Notes under the pieces: generated by a model | Seen by the model: the letters and a program-made list of their open reading frames with translations, nothing else | The model's database searches: none | What the model was told of the DNA's origin: nothing | In this document: one piece after another, positions 3,049 through 26,611 of the stretch | Layout of the letters: each line of letters opens with the position of its first letter | How positions within the stretch are numbered: position 1 is the stretch's first letter | Position numbers and translations under genes: made by a program | Source: Clostridiales bacterium | GTDB lineage: Bacteria > Bacillota > Clostridia > Lachnospirales > Lachnospiraceae | Assembly (NCBI GenBank): GCA_020860365.1 | Contig: JAJBUL010000177.1 | Span: forward strand, 1-37,962 | Length of the DNA: 37,962 nucleotides | Direction: 5' to 3'

Positions 3049-3510
3049 ATGTTTGTGTTGTATTTTCTGTTGTGGATCATTTATTTTGGCTCGATCACTC
3101 TGGAGAGTGTGCTGTTTGGCCTGGGGATTGCTGCTGCGGTTTTTGCTTTTACGTGCGCTTTTCTGGATCACAGCATCAAAAAAGAAATTGCGATTTATAA
3201 GCGCCTGCCGCAGATGGTTCATTATGTGTATGTCCTGATCTGTGAAATTGTAAAAGCGAACCTTGCGGTGATCCATATGATTTTGTCAGAGGAAGAAGAA
3301 CTGAAACCGGTTCTGGTTCATTTTCATTCGGAACTGAAAACGCCGACGGGGCGTGCTTTCCTGGCGAATGCGATTACCTTGACCCCGGGGACAATCACGG
3401 TATCGCTGGAGGATGGGGAGTATGTGGTTCACTGCCTGGATGAGGATCTGGCTGAGGGAATGGATACCTCTGTATGCGCCCAGATGATTGCAGAGATGGA
3501 GAAGAACTGA
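3049..3510 (+). CDS. mrpE: Mrp-type Na+/H+ antiporter subunit E
   Basis: 153 residues with two N-terminal membrane segments followed by the cytoplasmic MnhE domain. The family signature is plain: ICEIVKANLAVIHMIL, then TPTGRAFLANAITLTPGTITV. MrpE is a small accessory subunit of the multisubunit Mrp cation/proton antiporter. AAAGGAGG lies 10 bases upstream of the ATG. It is the first gene of a ten-gene operon in which most genes overlap or lie within about 20 bases of each other; the longest gap is 40 bases, before mrpC. Confidence 0.93.
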   Translation: MFVLYFLLWIIYFGSITLESVLFGLGIAAAVFAFTCAFLDHSIKKEIAIYKRLPQMVHYVYVLICEIVKANLAVIHMILSEEEELKPVLVHFHSELKTPTGRAFLANAITLTPGTITVSLEDGEYVVHCLDEDLAEGMDTSVCAQMIAEMEKN

Positions 3511-17518: not shown

Positions 17519-18018
17519 ATTAGAAAAACAGGCGATACCGTTTATGTATTTGGCGTAAAGGAGCGGCTTAAGACCGGTAAAAAGTCTCGCTTTCTCACCA
17601 TCAACGGCAAGCCCTATTATGTGAGTGCACAGGGTACGGCTTCGACCGGCTGGTTTGTGGTAAATGGCAAGCTTTACAGGGCCACTTCGGGAGGAAAAAT
17701 TTCGACCAGAACAGTGGATGGCAGAAGCAACGTGCTTATGATATGCTTGTGAAGCGCCGCGGAGACTGTAAAAGCTTTGCCTTTGCCTTTGCTGCCCTGG
17801 CCTGCGAGATTGGATATGACGCCTACGTGATCCGTAGTCGTGTGCCCGGTACACGTGATCAGGCTGCAGATGGTTACACAAAGCACAGCTGGGTGAGAAT
17901 TGATGGCCGCTATTTCGATCCGGAGGGCGACTGGGCCGGATGGAATAAGGGCTGCTACAATTACAGTTCCTATAATGTCTCTCACACGATTCAGCAGATT
18001 ATTCGTTTTATGGATTAG
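17519..18018 (+). pseudogene. Remnant of a cell-surface transglutaminase-domain protein
   Basis: Two segments lie in different frames. From about 17522 one frame gives GKKSRFLTINGKPYYVSAQG...GWFVVNGKLYRA, a beta-rich repeat type seen in secreted clostridial proteins. From about 17690 another frame gives AYDMLVKRRGDCKSFAFAFA...KHSWVRIDGRYFDPEGD, a transglutaminase-like core with Cys (RRGDC) and His/Asp (HSWV, YFDPE). No start codon with a ribosome binding site or signal peptide is left, and the junction requires a frameshift or deletion. I infer a decayed secreted transglutaminase-like protein. Confidence 0.65.
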
Positions 18019-18134: not shown

Positions 18135-18338
18135 TCAGATAAGGAGTTCTTTTTTCAACTGCAGGCAATAAGCTTTGTCTTCTGTAGCTTTTTTTAAATC
18201 GTCCATTCGATTGCTGTCAAGCAGCTTCCGAACCAGAGTGCGCATGTCTTCGTTCTCCTGTGCCCTGCCCTCTTCAATCCCCTTTTCAATCCCTTTTTCA
18301 ATCCCATCATCCACTAACATTTGTCCGAGGCGTGTCAT
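18135..18338 (-). CDS. Possible intragenic C-terminal product of the Rpn gene (RpnS-like, 67 residues)
   Basis: Inside the Rpn gene, in the same frame, AAGGAG (plus-strand 18348-18353) stands nine bases before an ATG at 18338. The product would start MTRLGQMLVDDGIEKG and contain the repeat tract and the C-terminal helix but no nuclease residues. Published work on Rpn systems shows that some of these genes encode such an internal small protein that neutralises the toxic full-length nuclease. A near-copy of exactly this segment exists alone at 25583-25762, which supports it being a functional unit. Expression is inferred, not seen. Confidence 0.45.
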   Translation of the reverse strand: MTRLGQMLVDDGIEKGIEKGIEEGRAQENEDMRTLVRKLLDSNRMDDLKKATEDKAYCLQLKKELLI

Positions 18339-18980
18339 ATAGATCATCTCCTTAACTTCAGAAAGCTCTTCTACATCTAAAAATTTGTCCGCAAAGGCGA
18401 AAAGGATAGCGGTAGCTCTGTTTGCGGACTCTGACTGATAATTCTTGATATAAGAAAGAGCGGTCAGTATTGTTTCCTTTTTTCCAATATTGCCAGACAT
18501 AACGGGTGTCATAGCCAGATTTGCAAAGTCTTCATCATTCAGTATTTCTTTTTGCGCAGTTTTCCGTGCTGCTACTGCAAAAACATCTTCTCTTTTGTAT
18601 TTTGCCATGTGGATCGGGATTACCTTATACGTATATTCTCCGCAATCCAACTCAAAACGTGTCTTTTTGTAACTTCCGGTGTAGAGCACGTAGGTTTTGA
18701 CCATCCGCCCGGTATTGTAGCTCATGGTTGCCTCGTAGGCGTGAAATCTCCGCAGGTCAGATGAACCGCCGCTGGTTGTCTGGAATTCAAAATGTACGTA
18801 AAACCCCTGGGTTGTCAGAAAAGTAAAATCCTGATACTTTTTTTCAACCGTAAGTGATACCAGTTCAGTGGGGCCGGAATCAACATATTCGTAATTGATA
18901 TTCAGAATTTTTAATAGCGTATCGCGAAAATATTCCATGCCCATTTTCATGATAGCATCTTCATGTTGAATATTAGCCAT
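18135..18980 (-). CDS. Rpn family PD-(D/E)XK nuclease/putative transposase
   Basis: 281 residues. The nuclease core is visible: Asp51 (DFTFLT) and Glu65/Gln67 in HFEFQTT, then GGSSDLRRFHAYEA, as in recombination-promoting nucleases of the RpnA-E type. The C-terminus carries three tandem four-residue units, GIEKGIEKGIEEG, a low-complexity tract characteristic of the family. I chose the ATG at 18980 because AAGGA is six bases upstream; the ATG at 19031 lacks a site. A promoter lies at 19077-19105. Rpn proteins are DNA endonucleases linked to recombination and anti-phage defence. An internal start for a C-terminal product is listed separately. Confidence 0.88.
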   Translation of the reverse strand: MANIQHEDAIMKMGMEYFRDTLLKILNINYEYVDSGPTELVSLTVEKKYQDFTFLTTQGFYVHFEFQTTSGGSSDLRRFHAYEATMSYNTGRMVKTYVLYTGSYKKTRFELDCGEYTYKVIPIHMAKYKREDVFAVAARKTAQKEILNDEDFANLAMTPVMSGNIGKKETILTALSYIKNYQSESANRATAILFAFADKFLDVEELSEVKEMIYMTRLGQMLVDDGIEKGIEKGIEEGRAQENEDMRTLVRKLLDSNRMDDLKKATEDKAYCLQLKKELLI

Positions 18981-19076
18981 AACCTGTCCTTGCTTTGAAT
19001 ATTTTCTGGTTGGTATGTAATCTGCTATCATATGTATTTTGGAATAATCGCTTTTGTATTCTGACTTTGCATTTTT

Positions 19077-25534: not shown

Positions 25535-25593
25535 TGGTATGTCCGCGTCCTGGAGCGATTCACCTGATACAAATCCACATAATCAAATGTTGA
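25432..25593 (+). pseudogene. C-terminal fragment of a ferredoxin-type 4Fe-4S protein
   Basis: In frame: CEVCQCDVLLPSPEKG, then HPSVTYSGECYYCGACVMVC followed by PRPGAIHL. The CxxCxxCxxxCP pattern binds one [4Fe-4S] cluster. No start or N-terminal part is present, and the fragment runs into the convergent Rpn-tail gene. Confidence 0.5.
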
Positions 25594-25762
25594 ATTCTTC
25601 TTTTAATTTCAAACAATAAGTCTTATCCTCTGTTGCTTTTTTTAAATCGTCTATCCTGTTGCTATCAAGCAGTTTTCGGATCAAAGAACACATATCTTCA
25701 TTTTCCTGTGCTTTGCCTTTTTCAATACCATCGTCCACTAACATTTGTCCAAGGCGTGTCAT
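25583..25762 (-). CDS. Solitary Rpn C-terminal (RpnS-like) small protein
   Basis: 59 residues from the ATG at 25762 (AAAGGA 10 bases upstream) or 62 from 25771. It matches the last 67 residues of the Rpn protein at 18135-18980 almost throughout: MTRLGQMLVDDGIEKG, then KAQENEDM and KLLDSNRIDDLKKATEDK. The main difference is loss of exactly two IEKG-type units. There is no nuclease domain. The upstream ATG overlaps the plsC stop (ATGA), so it would be translated from plsC mRNA. It may be an orphan antitoxin-like protein or just the tail of a deleted Rpn gene. Confidence 0.6.
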   Translation of the reverse strand: MTRLGQMLVDDGIEKGKAQENEDMCSLIRKLLDSNRIDDLKKATEDKTYCLKLKEEFNI

Positions 25763-25767
25763 ATAGA

Positions 25768-26508
25768 TCATTTCCTTTGCAGCTGCCCCCGCAGCATTTT
25801 TCTAATGACATTCTGCGTATACTTCCCAAGCGCCTTCTGGTCTTCTCTGGAAAGCTGCGCGGGGTAAATCGGCGCACCGTATTCAATCGTTACGTCCCTG
25901 CGGCGCACGTAAGGCTTATGGTCTTCGAAGATCGCGGAGGACCCGCTGATCGCGATCGGGATGATTGGGCAGCCGGATTTGGTCGCGACTTTAAAGGAAC
26001 CTTCATGGAAGGGCAGCATCTCCAATTCATTGCTGCCTTTGCCGCGCGTTCCCTCCGGAAAGATGGTAATGGAGACGCCATTTTTTATGAGATCCACACA
26101 GGAGAGAATCATCTTCAGCCCCGCGCGCAGATCACTGCGGTCAAGGAACTGACAGTGCAGAAACTTCATCCAGCGGGAGAGCAGCGGGATCTTCAGCATT
26201 TCCTTTTTCGCGACATAGCCCGTTGGCCGCGGGCAGCGCGCGTAGGTGAGGATAATATCAAAATAACTGCGGTGGTTACTGATGTACAGGACAGGTGTGT
26301 CCTTTGGCACGTGCTCCTCCCCGATCACAGTAAGCCGGGTTCCGGCCAGCCACGCAATCACCTTCAGCGCCCACTGGACAATCCGCAGGGAGCTGATGTC
26401 CCGCGCGTAAGGCCACCGCTTTCCGATCAGCCATTCCGCCAGAAAAATCGGATTGGATGCGATCCGATCGGAGAGTACGAACGCAATGATGAAAATAAAA
26501 CGAATCAT
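25768..26508 (-). CDS. plsC: 1-acyl-sn-glycerol-3-phosphate acyltransferase
   Basis: 246 residues. The N-terminal membrane segment (MIRFIFIIAFVL) is followed by the acyltransferase motifs: NHRSYFD (HX4D catalytic pair), FPEGTRG (acceptor phosphate binding) and CPIIPIAISG. It acylates lysophosphatidic acid to phosphatidic acid in membrane lipid synthesis. I chose the ATG at 26508 because AAGAGG is 10 bases upstream and the length fits; the frame is open to 26589. Its stop overlaps the start of the small Rpn-tail gene, an unusual neighbour that suggests a recombination junction at the plsC 3' end. Confidence 0.9.
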   Translation of the reverse strand: MIRFIFIIAFVLSDRIASNPIFLAEWLIGKRWPYARDISSLRIVQWALKVIAWLAGTRLTVIGEEHVPKDTPVLYISNHRSYFDIILTYARCPRPTGYVAKKEMLKIPLLSRWMKFLHCQFLDRSDLRAGLKMILSCVDLIKNGVSITIFPEGTRGKGSNELEMLPFHEGSFKVATKSGCPIIPIAISGSSAIFEDHKPYVRRRDVTIEYGAPIYPAQLSREDQKALGKYTQNVIRKMLRGQLQRK

Positions 26509-26611
26509 GAAAAAGTAGCCTCTTTTGTTTTCGCCTGCTGTGCGTGGGGACATCTTTGCATATTGGTACATTCCCTTATGCCCACGCACACGTCATATCA
26601 CGTAATCTAAT

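Follow-up and report, generated by a model that had tools for sequence, protein, structure and literature searches.

A conserved internal ribosome binding site in a clostridial Rpn-like nuclease gene points to an intragenic antitoxin

Introduction

Can a single reading frame of a clostridial bacterium supply both a nuclease and the small protein that holds it in check? The question is raised by a gene in contig JAJBUL010000177.1 of a Clostridiales bacterium (Lachnospiraceae; assembly GCA_020860365.1), from which a stretch of 37,962 nucleotides, called the window below, was analysed as a whole. A precedent exists in E. coli: according to Zhong et al. (2023; PMC10327210), the small protein RpnS arises by internal initiation, binds to RpnL and prevents the cleavage of DNA, and a C. 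difficile rpn gene is reported there to express RpnS in E. coli. The same paper describes RpnS also as a separate gene, attributes the specificity of RpnC to the number of its repeats, and places the beginning of the repeats of known RpnS proteins 8–20 residues after the internal methionine.

The nuclease gene and its internal start

The full-length Rpn-like nuclease gene (RpnL), recognized from its open reading frame, its TIGR01784 score and an AlphaFold model, occupies positions 18135..19031 on the minus strand; its length is 298 codons if the first ATG is the start and 281 if the second is, at 18980. Within it, the putative Shine–Dalgarno (SD) sequence AAGGAG (18353..18348, minus strand) is separated by nine bases from an in-frame ATG (18338..18336). 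This ATG opens an internal reading frame for a 67-residue RpnS-like product, a putative antitoxin (18338..18135 including the stop codon, minus strand). Both the placement of the motif and the 67-residue C-terminal product had been claimed in a first-pass annotation, and both were confirmed at these coordinates. The product begins with MTRLGQMLVDD, continues with three 12-base units (18270..18305, minus strand) coding for GIEK GIEK GIEE, which start 11 residues past the internal methionine, and ends with two further predicted helices. The earlier description, according to which it would hold only the GIEK tract and the C-terminal helix, was a little too narrow in its “only”. Among six close relatives the number of GIEK repeats ranges from 1 to 5.

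The motif by itself is unremarkable. AAGGAG followed by ATG after 5 to 10 bases occurs 10 times in the window, the internal site included, where shuffled sequences lead one to expect 2.45, and part of these matches are the starts of open reading frames (e.g., 15245 and 28940). With 2.45 expected by chance per window, the motif alone was set aside as evidence; the internal site stands above chance because it is conserved across homologues, as described below. A search for an internal promoter found 3 promoter-like sites in 1.5 kb against 3.6 expected, none of them above chance.

Beside the nuclease gene lies a long open reading frame with two arylsulfotransferase stretches (PF05935; 19989-24677). 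A membrane dipeptidase frame (PF01244; 16268-17371) has 367 codons as against 426 in its counterpart in the genome G019, and is followed by a weak transglutaminase-like fragment (17743-18018); these two may be shortened genes.

Conservation of the internal ribosome binding site

Homologues were collected from three sources, the genome under study being counted in each: 47 genomes of the genus (34 with a match), 299 genomes of the family (16 matching at 1e-20), and 397 genomes of the family searched with the C-terminal part as the query (31 matching at 1e-6). When open reading frames of at least 180 residues were kept, 83 hits were reduced to 65 unique sequences and to 43 clusters at 80 percent identity; alignment A1 consists of the window sequence and 31 of the 43 cluster representatives. 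As a null model, codons were redrawn synonymously from each gene's own usage in 300 draws.

A methionine codon is present at the junction of the nuclease and C-terminal parts in 63 of the 65 unique frames and in all 43 cluster representatives, the two frames that lack it being broken, and this methionine is among the 12 invariant columns of the 32 aligned sequences. The exact SD 5-mer is found at 38 of 43 junctions, compared with 13 of 248 other in-frame methionine codons of the same nuclease domains. Synonymous redraws at the junction still yield the 5-mer in 53 percent of cases.

The first-pass annotation had staked its reading on the site being kept more strictly than the codons demand, and this was borne out by the predicted strength of pairing with the anti-SD. 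The predicted energy is -9.0 or stronger in 43 of 43 clusters, and its mean of -11.9 contrasts with -7.0 in the redraws, none of the 300 being as strong (z -10.5, a value that is strong and inexact, the cluster representatives being related by descent and the z thus overstating their independence). The signal is a sum over clusters: 42 of 43 genes exceed the median of their own redraws, most of them individually without significance. The most telling feature is that the site is kept over different residues and in changing codon registers, namely as AAG GAG (KE), AAA GGA GGG (KGG), ACG GAG GAG (TEE), GTA AGG AGG (VRR) and ATG GAG (ME).

Fresh homologues agree. An order-level search (23 of 392 genomes at 1e-12, from the same and other families), together with viral contigs, gave 31 hits and 29 unique sequences; one that resembled the old set was excluded and others were merged, leaving 26 clusters. 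The aligned codon is ATG in 21 of these and GTG in two, and in one an ATG lies one residue off. In the 21 ATG clusters the mean energy is -11.2 as against -5.3 in the redraws (z -8.6, 0 of 300), a calculation that leaves aside the two GTG rows, the off-by-one row and the broken or odd frames L158 and the second L147 frame. The SD 5-mer is present in 20 of the 21, and some sites of the fresh set are weak (-5.9, -6.3). Taken with the changing registers, these comparisons suggest that the ribosome binding site itself is under selection, beyond protein coding.

Similar arrangements were seen in related genes. Sixteen Rpn frames of other classes were hand-picked as matching mainly in the C-terminal part, and all start codons of their second halves were scanned; in this hand-picked set, to which no null model was applied, 15 have, at a distance of 68 to 113 codons from the end, an internal start whose SD reaches -9.0 or better, and one of these has an additional candidate start nearer the end. 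Three viral contigs of IMG/VR (L181, L182 and L184) carry relatives of the nuclease gene with the same internal AAGGAGG and ATG. Two short C-terminal Rpn frames, L175 (G039) and L176 (G037), have the SD region GGGAGGTGA and an in-frame stop just before the internal ATG.

Identity and predicted structure of the nuclease part

The NCBIfam model TIGR01784 (Rpn/T_den_put_tspse) matches the window protein with 23.2 bits, below its curated cut-off of 52.1, a comparison made for the window protein only; at an E-value of 0.01 or better, the model matches 16 of the 32 members of the clade (best 1.4e-8). In the window gene neither the Pfam nuclease models nor PF04754 (Transposase_31) gave a match; elsewhere in the same genome PF04754 has three matches, each above its cut-off. 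Nothing was found in a profile comparison with E. coli RpnA. When the PDB was searched by sequence, the window protein matched no entry at E 1; E. coli RpnA finds 7TH0. Within the aligned clade, D51 and E65 are invariant and an ExQ is present in the majority of the sequences; D and ExQ form the catalytic signature of the PD-(D/E)XK superfamily.

Structure prediction adds to this picture. In the AlphaFold model of the full-length protein (pLDDT 85), residues 10-125 weakly match EndoMS-type and other PD-(D/E)XK enzymes, with weak Foldseek E-values (best 0.06), and the highest-ranked rows of the VIA-align comparison are occupied mainly by helical proteins whose match lies in the middle part. Family matches to FliH and Yae1 were dismissed and put down to the repeat tract. 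Taken together, sequence and model suggest that the window protein is a divergent Rpn-like nuclease, belonging to a clade whose window member scores under the cut-off of the Rpn model.

The model also places a break between a helix at 203-214 and one at 217-255, i.e., at Met215, the internal methionine, where the nuclease part gives way to the long repeat helix. Predicted alone, the 67-residue product (pLDDT 86) forms helices at 3-41, 45-53 and 55-64, the first of them long. Foldseek returned no chain for it, and its likeness to 7TH0 is one of secondary structure and of the published description.

A stand-alone gene without the nuclease part

A search of the same genome revealed a stand-alone RpnS-like gene without the nuclease part at 25583..25771 (minus strand). 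It directly adjoins, on the downstream side, a gene at 25768..26589 (minus strand), presumed to be acyltransferase-like from the appearance of its sequence; the TGA that ends this gene and the first ATG of the stand-alone gene overlap (ATGA). The latter has 62 codons from the ATG at 25771 and 59 from the ATG at 25762, the equivalent of the internal start. It is 83 percent identical to residues 225-296 of the full-length protein, has one GIEK unit where the resident full-length gene has three, and has a weaker SD (-6.1).

Relatives indicate how such a gene can arise. In G014, the acyltransferase gene is followed by an rpn gene that has its nuclease part as well as its C-terminal part, in two frames. 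G018 (L066) lacks most of the nuclease part, with the break near residue 204, and the window and G020 (L065) have in common a deletion whose junction falls exactly at the SD, so that the nuclease-less genes behind the acyltransferase-like gene in the window, G020 and G018 go back to no fewer than two separate deletions. The position of the breakpoint at the SD can be explained by five bases, AAAGG, that the end of the acyltransferase gene and the SD have in common.

When the window copy is compared with that of G020 over the 59 codons that they share, 9 changes are synonymous and none is nonsynonymous (P 2.7e-7, simple binomial), and their similarity stops soon after the stop codon; the 9:0 ratio therefore argues that selection maintains the stand-alone small protein in the absence of the nuclease. 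Provided that the shared junction goes back to a single inherited deletion, this protein would have been selected without an attached nuclease ever since, and on the same premise the gene would start at the conserved ATG or at the ATG nine bases before it. The C-terminal type is present in 5 of 47 genus genomes (E 1e-10), and at the same threshold no full-length gene of this type was found in G020 and G018, whose assemblies are about 90 and 97 percent complete.

Short C-terminal frames were also surveyed in hand-picked stretches, which yielded 19 under 200 codons, three of them at stretch edges. In this hand-picked set without a null model, 12 of the 16 away from the edges have a start SD of -9 or stronger, and the window copy is among the four that do not. 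In L169 (G040), a 95-codon stand-alone RpnS-like frame is situated between two longer tandem Rpn frames. As to viruses, the search with A1 found 5 relatives among viral contigs and the search with A2 none among them; named phage records contained no relatives at E 1e-3. On these results, carriage of a solitary RpnS of this type by phages is not claimed.

By analogy with the repeat-number rule of E. coli, the stand-alone protein would not be expected to restrain the resident nuclease. With one repeat unit against three, the same rule therefore makes it a possible guard, and it may act against other Rpn alleles.

A possible frameshift site in two relatives

In G014 (L067, about 955-975) and L035 (about 3272-3285), two overlapping frames with a -1 relation encode the nuclease; in both of these distant relatives they meet at the same place, GGA AAA AAG, containing the heptamer A_AAA_AAG. 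Heptamers of this type are known from programmed frameshifting. The parts of the G014 nuclease before and after the frame change have dN/dS values of 0.086 and 0.085 relative to the window gene, values by which both parts seem constrained, as expected of a working gene or of a recent break. The fold downstream of the heptamer is better than that of shuffled sequences in G014 (z -2.0) and not in L035 (z 0.26). At the corresponding place the window gene lacks the heptamer. The site is thus a candidate for either programmed frameshifting or shared decay. Frame breaks in other relatives (L020/L084, L022 and L079) are located elsewhere and look like ordinary decay.

A proposed mechanism and its alternatives

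The reading that we consider well supported and very probable is that one frame encodes two proteins, the nuclease RpnL and a 67-residue RpnS that restrains it until triggered. RpnL would be a PD-(D/E)XK-type nuclease of 281 residues. RpnS, a predicted helical protein, would be translated from its own ribosome binding site, which is conserved at the nucleotide level and lies at the boundary of the C-terminal domain. Its long GIEK-repeat helix would pair with the same helix in RpnL and, if the E. coli and C. difficile work is a guide, would hold the nuclease in check until it was released for defence by some trigger, for example infection by a phage. The first-pass annotation had read the gene as a clostridial Rpn gene with a candidate intragenic antitoxin, and this reading gains support from the conservation of the site, the stand-alone genes, one pair of which is under clear purifying selection, the placement of the repeats and the predicted helix break.

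The same motif could in principle be a by-product of coding for Lys-Glu before the helix break, with the internal start unused. Lys-Glu is indeed frequent at the junction, and about half of the redraws recreate the 5-mer; yet the SD is retained when the residues change, the z-scores are -10.5 and -8.6, the ATG is exchanged in two clusters for GTG, likewise a start codon, and a stand-alone gene beginning at the internal site is kept by selection, which makes this explanation highly improbable. Another possibility is that the stand-alone copy is no more than a remnant, in decay, of an rpn gene that was deleted, and is uninformative about the internal start. The AAAGG match can account for the junction and the SD of the window copy is weakened, but relative to the G020 copy, which has the same junction, all 9 differences are synonymous, and the similarity ends shortly past the stop codon; both points speak against decay, and we regard it as unlikely.

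If the internal start is used, the small protein might still be a structural partner that helps the nuclease to assemble, not an inhibitor. Conservation alone fits a helper and an inhibitor equally, and genes within genes can be complementary, as with Cas11d, a small product from an internal start within Cas10d (PMC10327210). Against this, stand-alone copies exist in G020 and G018, where no matching full-length gene was found (E 1e-10; assembly completeness about 90 and 97 percent), a helper with no nuclease to assist has no obvious use, and the E. coli relatives described in that paper are inhibitors; a helper role is accordingly given little credence, and restraint of RpnL by RpnS remains the preferred reading.

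With restraint as the working model, the internal-start antitoxin now reaches clostridial nucleases of a clade in which the member from the window falls below the standard Rpn cut-off, and quantitative evidence is provided for selection on the ribosome binding site itself. The toxin-less copies, made by natural deletion, show the small protein as a unit of its own, and the role of solitary RpnS proteins becomes directly testable. Together with the candidate frameshift of G014 and L035, they are the newer leads. More tentatively, and with the odds against it, both may hold together, i.e., solitary RpnS proteins, their genes coupled to the stop codon of a neighbour, may form a separate layer of immunity against foreign Rpn nucleases of other repeat length, and in the two relatives the full-length nuclease may in addition depend on a programmed -1 frameshift at A_AAA_AAG. 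If this joint reading were true, toxin and antitoxin would reside in one gene under different translational controls.

Comparison with known systems

Compared with RpnL/RpnS of E. coli and C. difficile, as presented in PMC10327210, the window gene is alike in that a ribosome binding site and start codon lie inside it where the nuclease part meets the C-terminal part (known for the window from its sequence and conservation), in its four-residue repeats soon after the internal methionine (11 residues), in the predicted three-helix small protein with a long first helix, and in the additional occurrence of RpnS as a separate gene. It differs in that its nuclease part belongs to a divergent clade that falls short of the cut-offs of the Rpn model, and in that the window's stand-alone copy, situated behind an acyltransferase-like gene, carries a smaller number of repeats than the resident full-length gene. 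The E. coli rpnA gene reads AAG GAG AGT TTA ATG at K240-M244, a site whose mutation abolished RpnAS (PMC10327210); the gap between AAGGAG and ATG is six bases there and nine in the window gene.

A C-terminal antitoxin as a separate gene is also represented by E. coli ypaA (rpnES), which, according to that paper, lies downstream of its rpn gene, unlike the copies of G020 and G018, in whose assemblies no full-length gene of the same C-terminal type was found at E 1e-10. Cas10d/Cas11d resembles the window gene in its internal start, whereas the products of the Cas pair are described there as complementary and not opposing. The arrangement is of the published RpnL/RpnS kind, and the type of system is already known.
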